Assembly (NCBI GenBank): GCA_902595845.1
Contig: CACJRN010000001.1
Coordinates: 198,326 to 262,325 of the forward strand
DNA from: an uncultured Gammaproteobacteria bacterium
GTDB taxonomy: Bacteria; Pseudomonadota; Gammaproteobacteria; Steroidobacterales; UBA11654
Direction: 5' to 3'
Length of the DNA stretch: 64,000 nucleotides
The position numbers and the translations under genes are program-made. Within the stretch, counting starts at the first letter, position 1; each line of letters starts with the position of its first letter. The notes under the pieces are model-generated. The model was not told the DNA's origin, ran no database searches, and was given only the letters and a program-made list of their open reading frames with translations. Below are positions 4,976 through 12,446 of the stretch, one piece after another.

Positions 4976-6685
4976 ATGAAAAATAGCTATTTCATACTGC
5001 TTTCACTTCTATTCTCCTTTGAATGCGTCATAGCGAGTTCCTCTGAAGGGCTGACAATATACAAAGCAAAGGAGATTGTAACGCTCGACCAGACAATTTC
5101 TTCAGCAGATTCTGTACTAATCAGTAATGATCGAGTGCTCGCAATCAGCTCTATCAAAGATTTAAAAGATAGATATCCAGAAGCAAGCATCAATGATCAA
5201 TTTAAGAATGATGTAATAGTTCCAGGTTTTATAGAGCACCATATTCACCCTTTCTTATCTGCCATCACAATGAATGCTGAAATCATTGCAATAGAGGGAT
5301 GGAATTTGCCAAACAATCAGTCCCAAGCTTATCGAGATCGAGATTCCTACTTGAAAAGGCTGTCAGATATTGAAAAGAGAATGAAAGATGATAAACCACT
5401 CGTTACTTGGGGATTTCATCATTACTTTCATGGCGATTTAACAAGAGATGATTTGGATTTGATTTCAAGTGAAAGACCCATTTTGGTTATGCATCGGTCT
5501 TATCACGAATTCATTTTAAACACACCTGCATTGGAATATTTCGATATCACCAGAGATTTTGTTGAATCCCTTGATGAAGAAGCAAGAATGTATGCGGACT
5601 TTGATAAAGGGCACTTTTCCGAACAAGGAATGATTTCAGTTTATCCAAAATTGCTGAAATATCTTGGAAGGCCAGAATACTTATTATCTGGTTTGCAGTT
5701 GACAGAAGATTACTTGCATCAAAATGGCGTGACAATGATTGCCAATCCAGGAGCATGGTTGATCGAGCCAATACAGAAAGCAAAGAATCTAATTTTAGGC
5801 GATGAAAACACTCCTTTTCGCTCATTCTTTATTCCAAGCGCACTCATTCTTTCTGAAGAGCATGAGGTTTCAGAACTCATTGAAGAATCTAAGAAGCTAC
5901 TTGATTGGGGAGAAGGAAAAGTCGAATATTTACCGAATAGAATTAAATTATTTGCTGATGGAGCCATGTACTCTCAAAATATGGTTTTGAGCGAAGGTTA
6001 CTTGGATGGGCATCAAGGTGCTTGGTTAATGCAGGAAGGGCTTTATCGATCTGTTTTTAAGCTATTTTGGGATGAGGGATATCAAATTCACATTCATCAA
6101 AATGGTGATGAAGCATTGGATTTAATTTTAGATGTTCTTGAAGAGAACATGGAAATCAATCCCAGAGAAGATCATCGAACAACCATTGTTCACTTTGGAA
6201 TCTCTAGGGCAGATCAAATGGAGCGTGTGAAATCTTTAGGCGCCATCATCAGTGCGAATCCCTACTATGTAACGGCACTCTCTGATTTATATAGCAGAAA
6301 GGGTATTGGCCCCGAAAGGGCGCTTGAGATGGTCCGTCTTGGGGATGTTGATCGAGCTGGCATTAGGTTTGGACTTCATTCTGATATGCCTATGGCACCA
6401 GGATCACCTCTAGATTTAATGCATGCTGCTGTTAATCGAATCAATTTTGCAAACGAAGTAGCAGGCCCAAATCAAAGAGTCAGCCCGATAGCAGCATTGA
6501 GGGGCGTGACACTCGATGCAGCATTTATCATGGGCTTGGAAGATGACTATGGCAGCATCAGTGAGGGTAAATTGGCTAATTTCACAATTCTTTCTGAAAA
6601 CCCCTTAACCGTGAATCCTGAAAGAATTAAGGATATAGATGTAATCGCCACCATTGTAGAAGGGAAGCACTATCCCATTAATTAA
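4976..6685 (+). CDS. Secreted amidohydrolase family protein (YtcJ-like)
   Basis: N-terminal signal peptide; VPGFIEHHIHPF metal motif, LHSDMPMAPGSPLDLMHAAVNR. Confidence 0.88.
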   Translation: MKNSYFILLSLLFSFECVIASSSEGLTIYKAKEIVTLDQTISSADSVLISNDRVLAISSIKDLKDRYPEASINDQFKNDVIVPGFIEHHIHPFLSAITMNAEIIAIEGWNLPNNQSQAYRDRDSYLKRLSDIEKRMKDDKPLVTWGFHHYFHGDLTRDDLDLISSERPILVMHRSYHEFILNTPALEYFDITRDFVESLDEEARMYADFDKGHFSEQGMISVYPKLLKYLGRPEYLLSGLQLTEDYLHQNGVTMIANPGAWLIEPIQKAKNLILGDENTPFRSFFIPSALILSEEHEVSELIEESKKLLDWGEGKVEYLPNRIKLFADGAMYSQNMVLSEGYLDGHQGAWLMQEGLYRSVFKLFWDEGYQIHIHQNGDEALDLILDVLEENMEINPREDHRTTIVHFGISRADQMERVKSLGAIISANPYYVTALSDLYSRKGIGPERALEMVRLGDVDRAGIRFGLHSDMPMAPGSPLDLMHAAVNRINFANEVAGPNQRVSPIAALRGVTLDAAFIMGLEDDYGSISEGKLANFTILSENPLTVNPERIKDIDVIATIVEGKHYPIN

Positions 6686-8139
6686 GTTCCACAGAATGTT
6701 TGAGTGACTTGCTCATCTTCTTTGGCTGGGAGGGCATAATCTTCCTTATTTTTCTGATCCAAAAATGGATTTGCGGTGACTTCCAATAACTCGTCCATGA
6801 TTTTATGAGTATTATTTTCCTGATATTCTCTGATCGCCCTTTCGATCATATGATTTCTGGGGATATAGATTGGATTTATAGAGTTGAGATTCTCAACGAG
6901 ATTTTCATCTATATTTCCCTTTTCTTTTTTCAATAATTTCTTCCATTTCTGAAGCCAGTCTTTGGGTTCTTCATGATTATCAAAACATTTTAGGAAGTGA
7001 TCATCATTGCCCTTAATCGCAGAGGAGAGAGACCTAAACGTTAGGGTAAAATCGGCACCATTTTGATGCATGATGGATAGTAAGCTCTTAATAAGCTCAT
7101 TACTCTCTTTTGTTTCCCTAAGGACAATCTTCTTTGTCATCTCTATATTGATTCTTGCGTTCACATCTTTTGAGAAGTTCTCGAGTGATTCTCTTATGAC
7201 TTCTTCTTTCTCATTGTCATCCCCGTCCATGATTGGAAGTAGGCAGCCCGCTAAGCAGGATAAATTCCATAATCCAATTTTTGGTTGATTGCTATATTTG
7301 TATCTTCCATGTCTATCAATGGAGCTGAATACTGTATTAGGATCATATGCTTCCATAAATGCACAAGGACCATAGTCTATTGTCTCACCTGATATTGAGA
7401 AATTGTCAGTATTCATCACACCATGTATGAAGCCAATGCTCATCCATTTTGATATCAAAATGGATTGTTTTCTGGCTATGGCATCAAAAAGAAGTAAGTA
7501 CTTATTCTTTTGATCAAAAATATTGGGATAAAGTCTTTTAATTGAAAAGTCTGCAAGCACTCTAAGGTTTTCTAAATCTTGCCTGGCTCGGAAAAACTCA
7601 AAAGTTCCCACTCGAATCAGGCTATTTGAAACTCTTGTAAGAACGCCCCCTTTCAAGGCCGTTTCCCTATAGACATTCTCGCCAGTAGAGATTGCTGCCA
7701 ATGCTCTTGTTGTAGGAATACTCATTGCATGCATGGCTTCACTGATGATGTATTCCCTTATGACGGGGCCAATAGCAGACCTGCCATCACCTTGCCTAGA
7801 AAAAGCTGTTACTCCTGAGCCTTTGAGCTGAATATCATTGAGCTTACCGCTCTTGTCATAGATCTCTCCTATCAAAATTGCTCTTCCATCACCCAATTGA
7901 GGAACAAAGTTTCCGAATTGATGACCGGCATAAGCCATTGCTATCGCTTCAGCATCCTTGGGAACTGTATTTCCAGAAAAATATTCAAGCAATTGCATTT
8001 CATCAGAGGTATCTATGGATAATTCATTCGCAAGTTCATAATTTATAGAAAGCATCTTTGGTTTACTGACAGGTGTCGGCCTAGTTGACCTATGAAAATC
8101 TTTTGGTAGCTCAGAGTAGGTATTTTGTATATTTTCCAT
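6682..8139 (-). CDS. selO: Protein adenylyltransferase SelO (YdiU/UPF0061)
   Basis: AYAGHQFGNFVPQLGDGRAILIGE, HGVMNTDNFSISGETIDYGPCAFMEAYDP motifs. Confidence 0.95.
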   Translation of the reverse strand: MENIQNTYSELPKDFHRSTRPTPVSKPKMLSINYELANELSIDTSDEMQLLEYFSGNTVPKDAEAIAMAYAGHQFGNFVPQLGDGRAILIGEIYDKSGKLNDIQLKGSGVTAFSRQGDGRSAIGPVIREYIISEAMHAMSIPTTRALAAISTGENVYRETALKGGVLTRVSNSLIRVGTFEFFRARQDLENLRVLADFSIKRLYPNIFDQKNKYLLLFDAIARKQSILISKWMSIGFIHGVMNTDNFSISGETIDYGPCAFMEAYDPNTVFSSIDRHGRYKYSNQPKIGLWNLSCLAGCLLPIMDGDDNEKEEVIRESLENFSKDVNARINIEMTKKIVLRETKESNELIKSLLSIMHQNGADFTLTFRSLSSAIKGNDDHFLKCFDNHEEPKDWLQKWKKLLKKEKGNIDENLVENLNSINPIYIPRNHMIERAIREYQENNTHKIMDELLEVTANPFLDQKNKEDYALPAKEDEQVTQTFCGT

Positions 8140-8240: not shown

Positions 8241-9518
8241 GTGATTGAGAATTTTAAAAAAAGAATTTTTGATATACCCATTGAAGACAGATCTTCATTA
8301 TTGAGAGCCTTCTTCTTCTTTTATTTCGTTTTATGTTCTTGGTACTCTATTCGCCCAGTCAGAAATGAAATGGCTGTCCAAGCAGGTTTAGAGAATCTTC
8401 CAAGTCTTTTATCCATTGTCCTATTGGTCATGTTGATTGCAAATCCAGTTTATTCATGGCTGGTCTCTCGTATTAATCGAAACAAGATCGTCTTGTATTT
8501 CTACCTATTTTTCATACTGAACCTTTTGGTATTCTTTTTTTCATGGGTTTTGCTTGATGAATCATGGAAGCCACTGATCGCAAAGAGTTTTTATATATGG
8601 TGCAATGTTTTCTCCTTTTTTGTGGTCTCAATATTTTGGGTATCCATGATCAACTATTTCAGTGGATCTCAAGCAAAGCTTTACTTTGGGATCATCAGTG
8701 CGGGAGGCTCAATAGGCGCTTTCTCAGGCTCTTCGATTGCGAGAGTCTTCTCAACACAAGTTTGCGGATCAGTAACTTTATCTGAATGGGGACCATTTTC
8801 ACTGATATTGATATCTGTCTTTTCTTTATCCATTGCCTGTTTCTTGAGTATGTCATTCAAATCTGAGGTCAATGAAAAAGAAGGAGGTGTAAGCAGTGAG
8901 AGTTTGTCTGGTTCTGCATTTGAGCCAATTACAGAAATTGCTCAATCATCTGTGCTTAAAAACCTGAGTTTATATATGGTCTTGTGGACAGGCTTAATGA
9001 CATTTGGTTGGATGATAGCTTTGGGCATCGTTCAAGAATGGTCAACTGATCCATGCGAAAGAACAGCATTTTTCGCTAGGATTGAACAGATTGTTACACC
9101 GTTAACACTTGTATGTCAGTTTTTTGTAACCTCATTTGTCTTACGATCCTTTGGCATCAAAAAGGTTTTAATCATTTATGGATTCATTCTATTTGCAGCA
9201 ATCTATTTCTATGAAATATATCCTGAGATCATGACTGTCTTGATTGTTGTTTCAATCCTGAGAACATTTGAATATGGCTTGTCAAAACCAGCAAGAGAAA
9301 GTCTGTTTACCAAGCTCAAAAGAGAGCAACGTTATAAATCAACTGTTTTCTTAGACACTTTCTTTGCAAGAGGAGGAGAGGTCATGGGCAGTTGGTTTGC
9401 TGCGAAAGGCGCTTTATTGATTGGTCTTTCTTCCATGGGGGCAACCCTATTCATGATTCCATTTGCTGCTCTTCTATCCTGGGCAGGATATAGATCTTCA
9501 AAGCTATTAGACGAATAA
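8241..9518 (+). CDS. NTP/NDP exchange transporter-like MFS membrane protein
   Basis: About 12 TM helices; FVLCSWYSIRPVRNEMAVQAG N-terminus resembles Npt1/Npt2-type transporters. Confidence 0.75.
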   Translation: MIENFKKRIFDIPIEDRSSLLRAFFFFYFVLCSWYSIRPVRNEMAVQAGLENLPSLLSIVLLVMLIANPVYSWLVSRINRNKIVLYFYLFFILNLLVFFFSWVLLDESWKPLIAKSFYIWCNVFSFFVVSIFWVSMINYFSGSQAKLYFGIISAGGSIGAFSGSSIARVFSTQVCGSVTLSEWGPFSLILISVFSLSIACFLSMSFKSEVNEKEGGVSSESLSGSAFEPITEIAQSSVLKNLSLYMVLWTGLMTFGWMIALGIVQEWSTDPCERTAFFARIEQIVTPLTLVCQFFVTSFVLRSFGIKKVLIIYGFILFAAIYFYEIYPEIMTVLIVVSILRTFEYGLSKPARESLFTKLKREQRYKSTVFLDTFFARGGEVMGSWFAAKGALLIGLSSMGATLFMIPFAALLSWAGYRSSKLLDE

Positions 9519-9523
9519 TAGAC

Positions 9524-9550
9524 AAAAAAAAACAGAGCCTTCGCTCTGTT
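9524..9550 (-). terminator. Rho-independent terminator
   Basis: Minus strand reads AACAGAGCgaagGCTCTGTT followed by TTTTTTT; may also serve the plus-strand gene ending at 9518. Confidence 0.85.
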
Positions 9551-9752
9551 TCTTTAGTCGAGTCCTTGGGGTGTCTGAAGCGAGATTCTTTCTTCAGCGC
9601 CTCGCCCGGTATCTCTTTCCGAACTTGGTGGGAATCGGTTCCTTTTTGCTGCTAGCTTATCTTCCCCGATTCGCTTTCACCCTTTAGGTCTCTTTCTCTT
9701 TTTGACTCTCCCTTCCGCGTCTTAAGTTACTTTCGGGTCGGTCTCAAGAGAT
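9524..9752 (-). ncRNA. Candidate unannotated structured small RNA
   Basis: GC-richer than flanks, no ORF, sigma70-like promoter (TTGAAA-16 bp-TAATAT, minus strand), internal and closing helices, strong 3' terminator. Confidence 0.6.
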
Positions 9753-9758
9753 GATTTA

Positions 9759-9786
9759 ATATTACGACTTACTTATTTTTTTTCAA
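9759..9786 (-). promoter_or_regulatory. Predicted sigma70-type promoter for the candidate sRNA
   Basis: Minus strand TTGAAA (9781-9786) - 16 nt - TAATAT (9759-9764). Confidence 0.5.
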
Positions 9787-10071
9787 ATACATTTGCGAGA
9801 AAAATCAAAGTATTTTTTGTTAATTTTTTTTATGTCCTATAAAAAATAATATCTAGTATTAAGAGTATTTTATAACTAACTGATATTTATAATTATCCAA
9901 AAAAATCAGATGAAAAAATATGTCCTATAAGTTTTTTTTAAAAAAAATTAAAAAAATGAAATAAAAAAATTATTTTGCGCAAATGTAGTTATTTGAGAGT
10001 TATTATTAGTTGAATTAATCGTAAATAAAATTGGAAATCTCTTATAAAAATGGTTGTTTTATCTCAATTCA

Positions 10072-10842
10072 ATGAACAATATTAAAACAATGGATCTCAA
10101 TGCAGATTTGGGTGAATACTCCTCTAGGGATGAATTAAATAATGAGATCAGCCTTATTCATCACATCACATCTGCCAGTATTGCATGCGGAGGTCATGCC
10201 GGCGATCAAGAGTCAATTGGTAATATGATTGAGCATTGCACTAGACACAATGTTTTATTTGGCCCTCATCCCTCTTATCCCGATAAAAAAGGGTTTGGGC
10301 GTAAGAGATTATCGATCAGCGATGAAACATTGATTGAGTCGATCATTGATCAAGTATCATTATTTTTTGAAATTGCCAAAACCCATCAAGCCGAGCCGAC
10401 ACATGTGAAATTTCATGGTCAACTTTACAATGATTGCTTTTCTGATGAAAAAATAAGCCAGCTCTGCTTATCTGCTATGCAAGCAGTGTGCCCAAATACA
10501 GCTCTCATGTGTCAGCCATATTCTGTAATCAGCGATCTCGCCCAGAGATCAGGAATAAAGGTCATAAATGAGGCATTTGTTGATCGTAAATATCAATCGA
10601 ATGGAGCCTTAACGGAAAGAATCATTGCTGATGCTGTCATATCATCTCTGGATGAAAGAACCGAACAAGCAGCTTTAATTGCATGCGAAGAGAAAGTAAT
10701 AGCCGAGAATGCAAGAGAGATAGAGATAAAAGCAGATACGCTCTGTATCCATAGCGACCATTCTGAATCTATAGAAACTGCAATAGCAATCAAAGAGATG
10801 TTGGAAAAGCATCAATGTCAAATAAAGAGCTATGACATTTAA
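10072..10842 (+). CDS. pxpA: 5-oxoprolinase subunit PxpA (LamB/YcsF family)
   Basis: MDLNADLGEY, SIACGGHAGD, GPHPSYPDKKGFGR motifs; followed by pxpB and pxpC. Confidence 0.95.
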   Translation: MNNIKTMDLNADLGEYSSRDELNNEISLIHHITSASIACGGHAGDQESIGNMIEHCTRHNVLFGPHPSYPDKKGFGRKRLSISDETLIESIIDQVSLFFEIAKTHQAEPTHVKFHGQLYNDCFSDEKISQLCLSAMQAVCPNTALMCQPYSVISDLAQRSGIKVINEAFVDRKYQSNGALTERIIADAVISSLDERTEQAALIACEEKVIAENAREIEIKADTLCIHSDHSESIETAIAIKEMLEKHQCQIKSYDI

Positions 10843-11515
10843 CTCCAATATAAGCATTGCAATCATTGCTGAAGACATGGTTGAAATAGTGATTGGCGAT
10901 AAAGATGAGGGCATTAAGAATTCAGAATTAAATTGGCATCTCGCAGATCATTTATTGAAAAATCAAAATGATATAGAAGCGATTGCATCTGAAGAGATGA
11001 TTTCTATTCGATCCAAAGTGATTCCAATTGATACCCAGAAAATCGAGATTGGGATCTCTACATTTGATTTCAGTTCTATGAGAAAAATTGATCATCAATT
11101 GGAGATTCCAATATGTTATGAAAATACTTTTGGAATTGATCTTGATTGCATATCCAAGCAATTAAATCTTTCTACTAAAGAGATTATTGAAGTTCATTCA
11201 TCCACTAATTATGAAGTCAAAGCCATTGGTTTCACTCCAGGATTCGCATATTTGGGTGATCTCGATAAAAGACTGTTTGTACCAAGGCTTAGCAAACCTA
11301 GATTGAATACACCCATTGGTTCTGTTGCCATTGCCAATGACAGAACGGGTGTATATTCCTTGGGCGGGCCGGGAGGTTGGCCGATTATAGGAGCCACCCC
11401 TTTAAACTTGTTTGATCCTAAAGGCAGTCATTCGATGAAACTGATTCCTGGAACCAAAGTTTCATTTAGTCCAATTTCTAAAGAAGAATACAAAACGATG
11501 AGAAATAAAAAATAG
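10832..11515 (+). CDS. pxpB: 5-oxoprolinase subunit PxpB (KipI family)
   Basis: GFTPGFAYLGDLDKRLFVPRLSKPRLNTPIGSVAIANDRTGVYSLGGPGGWPIIG. Confidence 0.95.
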   Translation: MTFNSNISIAIIAEDMVEIVIGDKDEGIKNSELNWHLADHLLKNQNDIEAIASEEMISIRSKVIPIDTQKIEIGISTFDFSSMRKIDHQLEIPICYENTFGIDLDCISKQLNLSTKEIIEVHSSTNYEVKAIGFTPGFAYLGDLDKRLFVPRLSKPRLNTPIGSVAIANDRTGVYSLGGPGGWPIIGATPLNLFDPKGSHSMKLIPGTKVSFSPISKEEYKTMRNKK

Positions 11516-11516
11516 A

Positions 11517-12446
11517 ATGGCAATCCAGATTCTAAGCACAGGTTTACAGACCACTGTCCAAGATCTTGGAAGATTGAGGAAGAGACATATTGGCATTCCA
11601 CAATCAGGTGCATTCGATTATCTTTCTGCAGCAAAGGCCAATGCAATATTGGGAAAATCAATCCACTCTCCTGTATTGGAATGCACCATGACTGGCCCAA
11701 CCATAAAGTTTCTGAAAGATATGCAGATTTGCGTTACAGGCGCAAGGGTGAGTGAGTTAAAAATAGATGATTCTTTGGTTGCTCAAGATGAACTTCTTGA
11801 TCTCAAAAAAGGAAATATTTTTTCAATGAGCCATGCTGAAGAAAATTTAAGGTTTTATGTCGGATTCTCAGATGACATCAAAGCAACAGAATTTTTGGGC
11901 AGTGTTTCAACCTATTTACCAGCAAAGCTTGGTGGTCTTAATGGAGAGGCTATTCAAAAAGATCAAATGATTGATTTCAAAAAGACAGCAGCTGATAAAT
12001 ATGTGAGTACTCCATCTTTCCAAGTGAAAGGAACATTCAACACATCAATAATCAGAGTGGTGGCAGGGCCTGAATTCAATCTATTGAATATGACAGCAAA
12101 TGAGTTAGGGAAAGATGACTACATTATTAGCAATGAGTCTAATCGAATGGGTATAAGGACTGTTGGGAAAAAAATGCAAATCGATGATGGTGGATCAATG
12201 ATCAGTAAGCCTATCTACCCAGGAATGGTTCAGTGCCCACAAAATGGATTGCCGATTATATTGGGAGCAGATGCTCAAACCTTAGGAGGTTATCCAAGGA
12301 TATTACAAGTGATCAAGGCAGATCGTCATTTGCTGGGTCAGCTCAAGCCCAATGATCGCTTTAGATTCAATTTGATTTCAATCGCTGAAGCAATAGATGA
12401 ATGGAATACCTTGAAAAAAGCTTATCCATTCATTTGTGAGTTATAA
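11517..12446 (+). CDS. pxpC: 5-oxoprolinase subunit PxpC (KipA, biotin-dependent carboxyltransferase family)
   Basis: TTVQDLGR...GIPQSGAFD, ESNRMGIR, GMVQCPQNGLPIILGADAQTLGGYP motifs. Confidence 0.95.
   Translation: MAIQILSTGLQTTVQDLGRLRKRHIGIPQSGAFDYLSAAKANAILGKSIHSPVLECTMTGPTIKFLKDMQICVTGARVSELKIDDSLVAQDELLDLKKGNIFSMSHAEENLRFYVGFSDDIKATEFLGSVSTYLPAKLGGLNGEAIQKDQMIDFKKTAADKYVSTPSFQVKGTFNTSIIRVVAGPEFNLLNMTANELGKDDYIISNESNRMGIRTVGKKMQIDDGGSMISKPIYPGMVQCPQNGLPIILGADAQTLGGYPRILQVIKADRHLLGQLKPNDRFRFNLISIAEAIDEWNTLKKAYPFICEL

Follow-up and report, generated by a model that had tools for sequence, protein, structure and literature searches.

The window analyzed here, the whole stretch of 64,000 nucleotides, carries on its minus strand a gene for the small RNA IMES-1, bordered at its 3' side by a convergent MFS-like transporter gene whose product gives an MFS_1 match under the cut-off. 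On the other side, a spacer at 9750-10050 with about 15-18% G+C precedes a row of LamB_YcsF, CT_C_D and CT_A_B genes (10054-12446) that is consistent with a pxpABC 5-oxoprolinase set; a gene for the SelO protein adenylyltransferase (PF02696) lies at 6682-8139. As an earlier note on this DNA had observed, the segment is richer in G+C (~0.47-0.51 at 9550-9750) than the extremely AT-rich stretch just upstream (0.15-0.18). Comparison with Rfam using cmscan identified 9749-9549 on the minus strand as IMES-1 (RF02034; 112.4 bits against a gathering threshold of 81, E = 2.6e-23), with the model matched over its full length. The features of the locus are collected in Table 1.

Table 1. Coordinates of the IMES-1 gene, its signals, its 3' neighbor and its predicted structural elements within the window
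Feature	Position	Strand	Basis
IMES-1 RNA (RF02034)	9549..9749	-	cmscan, full-length covariance-model match 1-191
Inferred transcript, ~227 nt	9526..9752	-	promoter and terminator positions; predicted start to T-run
Promoter-like TTGAAA-16-TAATAT	9759..9786	-	elements and spacing alike in 10/10 family copies
Intrinsic terminator AAAGAAACAGAGC-gaag-GCTCTGTTTTTTT	9526..9555	-	kept in nearly all copies read
MFS-like transporter gene, convergent, conserved 3' neighbor	8241..9518	+	tblastn; MFS_1 match under the cut-off
P1a 5' arm UCUCUU, pairs with 9695-9700	9746..9751	-	Rfam model and MFE
P1a 3' arm AAGAGA	9695..9700	-	Rfam model and MFE
Site A CUUAAG, P1 loop, candidate self-complementary kissing hexamer	9721..9726	-	113/114 copies self-complementary, three versions
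P2 5' arm GGGUG, pairs with 9569-9573	9678..9682	-	MFE; inner pairs vary compatibly in relatives
P2 3' arm CACCC	9569..9573	-	MFE; compatible variation in relatives
P3 5' arm GAAUCGG, pairs with 9632-9638	9666..9672	-	MFE; arms co-change across copies by inspection
P3 3' arm CCGAUUC	9632..9638	-	MFE
Site B GCUAGC, P3 loop, second candidate kissing hexamer	9651..9656	-	114/114 copies self-complementary, 11 hexamers
P4 loop GAGAU, complementary to P5 loop	9611..9615	-	covariation across copies
P5 5' arm CUGAAG, pairs with 9575-9580	9592..9597	-	compensatory changes in 4/6 pairs
P5 3' arm CUUCAG	9575..9580	-	compensatory changes in 4/6 pairs
P5 loop AUCUC, partner of P4 loop	9582..9586	-	covariation across copies

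The segment is thus an IMES-1 RNA already present in Rfam, and what is apparently new is structural. The earlier note had taken the small RNA to be unannotated, which the Rfam family contradicts, and had itself proposed the cmscan search, adding that a match would make the RNA known and not novel. Its description of a free-standing, structured small RNA of the minus strand, ~227 nt long, is borne out by the Rfam match, the fold, the compensatory changes and the conserved promoter. The literature of 2009 reportedly contains the description of IMES-1, along with reports on marine metatranscriptome small RNAs and their expression; to our knowledge, no function has been assigned to it since. Our literature search, which did not extend to the original 2009 description, yielded no paper mentioning IMES-1, and the palindromes described below may have been noted before. 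Weak Rfam matches at the locus (snoRNAs and the patAB leader) were under their thresholds and were taken as chance. The 6S RNA (RF00013) is likewise a small, free-standing, structured RNA of comparable length, but it gave no match at the IMES-1 locus even at E values up to 10, and each of the 11 genomes in the window's family encodes it at a separate locus (G000:C1:81210-81392 in the window's organism).

The transcription signals named by the earlier note were both recovered, the terminator as a strong intrinsic one. On the window sequence alone, the promoter-like element is not above chance (2 sites versus 2.4 expected in shuffles); across the 10 readable copies of the window's family, elements of the form TTGA[A/T]A-16-TA[A/T][T/C]AT occur in every one at a constant position, and many SAR86 copies are preceded by TTGAC[A/T]-16-TA-rich elements. 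By tblastn, the MFS-like gene adjoins IMES-1 in nine loci of the window's family, including the window's own, and this neighbor is constant within that family, whereas the flanking genes vary from family to family.

IMES-1 occurs in SAR86 and in the small family of the window's organism and is almost absent from the other Gammaproteobacteria sampled. It was found in 124 of the 199 genomes of the order of G575 (SAR86) and in 10/11 genomes of the window's family, the one genome without a match (G081) being 78% complete; the window's own organism has a single copy. Broader samples returned 3/369 genomes class-wide (the organism's own and two from the order of G575) and 1/399 phylum-wide (its own), and the matches of a pattern scan of named genomes were mostly SAR86 records. 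Beyond its own family, the window's order has IMES-1 in only two genomes, both of family f7, whose high-scoring copies (L002/L124 on G287:C15 and L003/L125 on G174:C35) are of SAR86-type sequence; they are probably SAR86 contigs in wrong bins, which is unproven (the G174 contig has 44% G+C), and they were set aside as such. The IMES-1 pattern had no match in viral contigs, and carriage by phages was accordingly rejected.

A number of SAR86 genomes hold at least two copies (G575, G746, G779, G816, G839, G854 and others; loci L119, L123, L126, L118 and L147), and in G575 and G779 copies lie in tandem ~120 bp apart, no two of them sharing a promoter-like element or a terminator. Divergent relatives occur in genus g236 of the SAR86 family f177 (L206-L209), where scores of 31-35 bits are under the Rfam cut-off, P3 is shortened, site B is missing and the P4/P5 loops read CGGG/CCCG. 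Given the varying neighbors and the multiple copies in SAR86 genomes, IMES-1 is a free-standing gene and not the leader of one operon.

Because the RNA is purine-rich with several GGA triplets, the earlier note had speculated that it could titrate CsrA/RsmE as a sponge. CsrA (PF02599) was not found in any of the 11 genomes of the window's family or the 17 tested genomes of the SAR86 families f188 and f46; the same search detected it in 20/20 genomes of f196 and f177 and hence works. Family f196 does combine IMES-1 with CsrA, but in f177, where every genome has CsrA, IMES-1 is only divergent or undetectable. This absence by family makes a CsrA sponge very unlikely. Neither the 11 genomes of the window's family nor the 37 tested from the SAR86 order (48 genomes in all) gave a match to Hfq (PF17209), which was present in 8/9 other tested members of the window's order; many genomes in the CsrA and Hfq searches are incomplete, and the pattern of presence is uniform by family. 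The tested SAR86 families are split with respect to CsrA, undetected in f188 and f46 and present in f196 and f177, while Hfq is undetected in all four families. To the extent that gene searches can show it, a classical mode of action through Hfq is excluded. This bears on the idea of a trans-acting antisense RNA that would meet mRNAs through its exposed loops, for which the sRNA-like free-standing gene with promoter and terminator and the lack of a fixed neighbor across families could speak: Hfq went undetected in every IMES-1-bearing lineage tested, and the conserved parts are structure and loops that match themselves, so that we regard antisense action as quite improbable.

The predicted fold has a minimum free energy of -71.1 kcal/mol (z = -3.8), which beats all 200 shuffles. 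In the helices, 10 of the 17 tested pairs have changed on both sides among relatives and 94.3% of cells remain paired, and neither value was reached in 500 shuffles, in agreement with the structured RNA proposed in the earlier note. Two helices proposed by eye, GAAUCGG/CCGAUUC and CUGAAG/CUUCAG, correspond to P3 and P5, the latter with compensatory changes; a third, ACCU/GGGU, came near the truth, the actual pairing (P2) being GGGUG with CACCC. The proposed closing helix UUGAGACC/GGACUCGA finds no support, as its 5' arm instead pairs with AAGAGA in a hairpin of its own, P1a, and CUCGA is nearly invariant. A crude arm-swap test of P1a told little, the longest helix being 4.91 with the own arm versus 4.24 with others. 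The long unpaired stretches GGUGAAAGC, CCACCAAG and CUCGA are nearly invariant across copies. The fold shares with the RF02034 consensus the order of hairpins and the conserved unpaired blocks; the window's copy differs in a longer P3 region and in having CUUAAG in place of CUGCAG at site A, and the consensus line leaves both hexamers described below unpaired.

The consensus is also nested and therefore cannot display a pairing between the P4 and P5 loops, which covary across copies: GAAAU/AUUUC (L012), AAGA/UCUU (L080), GAAG/CUUC (L110) and CGGG/CCCG (L207, f177). This putative contact may form within one molecule or between molecules.

Two further loops carry hexamers complementary to themselves. 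Site A, with a mean unpaired probability of 0.93, stands in the context A-[hexamer]-A and reads CUGCAG (as in L039), CUCGAG or CUUAAG, with the single exception GUGCAG (L013), in which the UGCA core alone is still self-complementary. Site B lies in the P3 loop directly 5' of an A-rich run; in the window's fold a weak hairpin of 3 bp occupies part of its GCUAGC, which has an unpaired probability of 0.54. Seven of its hexamers are self-complementary by Watson-Crick pairs (GCUAGC, GUUAAC, GUCGAC, GUAUAC, GGUACC, GCAUGC and GCCGGC) and the others via G-U pairs (GUCGAU, GUCGGC, GUGCAU and GUUGAC). A contact between sites A and B was considered and rejected as not conserved, since on inspection the two are mutually non-complementary in most copies.

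Among 56 distinct excerpts, 99.7% of cells are paired when each hexamer is paired with itself, the covariation is 0.572 versus 0.222 in shuffles and double-change cells number 58 versus 16.4; none of 500 shuffles reached the self-pairing values. Sliding the partner by 1-3 columns mostly abolished the self-pairing, the -3 slide keeping 80% with two pairs only. A tree of the 114 copies, for which the hexamers had been masked, places at least 20 changes at site B (35 substitutions counted by column) with all 114 copies still self-complementary, whereas neutral simulations with an equal number of substitutions retained 31-36 on average and none of 5000 reached 114, under a rough null of independent substitutions with a 2:1 transition preference. 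Site A changed about three times, and its level on the same tree was reached by 50/5000 simulations; with so few changes it is moderate evidence when taken alone.

All alignment windows of each family were scanned for f1, f188 and f196, with f46 left out. In f1, sites A and B ranked at the top (1.00 and 0.89; next 0.44), and in f188 and f196 both scored 1.00, along with some near-invariant windows at 0.93-1.00; no window of a 6S control alignment exceeded 0.83. Constant self-complementary windows such as TTCGAA and TTTAGA in f196 also score high, so self-complementarity without sequence change means little, and site B is the sole window that scores 1.00 with several different hexamers in f1, f188 and f196 alike. 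The f46 copies, extracted after the hypothesis had been formed, all keep both palindromes (CUGCAG at site A; GUCGAC, GCUAGC or GCAUGC at site B), and in most of them site B is predicted to lie in a loop of 11 nt on top of a co-changing stem (CUC/GAG, GCUU/AAGC, GGUU/AACC or GGUC/GACC). In f196, site B reads GUUAAC (L106), GUUGAC (L107) or GGUACC (L111 and L131); in f46 and f196 it was located with the A-run or the hexamer list as a guide. Paralogues within 15 genomes have mutually compatible hexamers. Four divergent f177 copies keep site A as CUCGAG and lack site B, so not every copy has both contacts.

Six-base palindromes are typical of restriction sites and of sites for dimeric DNA-binding proteins, and the hexamers could in principle act within the gene at the DNA level. 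At site B, however, symmetry alone is kept through 11 different sequences, and GUCGAU, GUCGGC and GUUGAC are self-complementary solely via G-U pairs, which work in RNA and break a DNA palindrome; this contradicts the DNA-site reading, which we consider hardly tenable. We also judge it unlikely that IMES-1 acts as a monomer, a decoy or scaffold for a protein, with palindromic loops that serve some purpose other than self-pairing: the nearly invariant unpaired stretches do resemble binding sites, but recognition by a protein should keep the sequence of a loop, and here self-complementarity is kept while the sequence changes.

What the comparison of copies establishes is that two loops stay self-complementary while their sequences change and that the P4/P5 loops covary. 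Adjacent bases of a loop cannot pair within one hairpin, so covariation that keeps the palindrome indicates pairing between two molecules. We therefore favor, with a probability of roughly 0.7, the reading that IMES-1 is an Hfq-independent RNA that self-associates via its two loops by homotypic kissing and forms a multivalent platform for a partner; the pairing inside cells, the number of molecules involved and the role as a platform are what we infer. The window's copy is the organism's single IMES-1 gene, with its own sigma-70-type promoter and intrinsic terminator, and its free-standing, Hfq-independent product would bind other copies of IMES-1. Kissing would join the P1 loop to that of another molecule through its hexamer (CUUAAG in the window) and one P3 loop to another through GCUAGC. 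The product would be either a dimer closed on itself or an assembly of more molecules, in ring or chain form, with the putative P4-P5 contact shaping the 3' half. Such an oligomer would show the conserved unpaired motifs several times over, and that this repeated display serves as the platform is a guess. The duplexes of CUUAAG and GUUAAC are weak (-3.2 and -3.4 kcal/mol). A tentative extension, to which we give somewhat less than even odds, is that the two symmetric kissing loops assemble IMES-1 into an RNA-only oligomer (a ring, chain or cage) in these Hfq-less marine bacteria. If IMES-1 does self-associate, a native gel with the hexamer broken and restored offers a cheap and specific test for this RNA of open-ocean SAR86.

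The dimerization initiation site (DIS) of retroviruses forms a kissing loop through a purine-flanked, self-complementary hexamer in a hairpin loop. IMES-1 shares the self-complementary hexamer, the purine flanks and the hairpin loop with this unrelated RNA and differs in having two such loops per molecule, with a P1 loop of ~10 nt. Loops that change yet stay self-complementary mark homo-oligomeric RNAs of the OLE/GOLLD/ROOL kind and are seen here strongly at site B and moderately at site A. In OLE, the symmetric kissing loop L9.3 covaries from GGCC to GAUC/AGCU at adjacent nucleotides, and in GOLLD the loop L21a covaries from GC to CG (PMC12286853). IMES-1 resembles these RNAs in having candidate symmetric kissing loops backed by adjacent-nucleotide covariation; OLE and GOLLD, in contrast, are large homo-oligomers with solved cryo-EM structures (PMC12286853), whereas IMES-1 is ~225 nt long and known here from its sequence, and no sequence relation is claimed. 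If the proposed self-association is correct, RNA-only quaternary structure, so far a matter of large RNAs, would extend to an RNA of ~225 nt in which each molecule makes two symmetric contacts, a compact addition to the few known natural RNA homo-oligomers.
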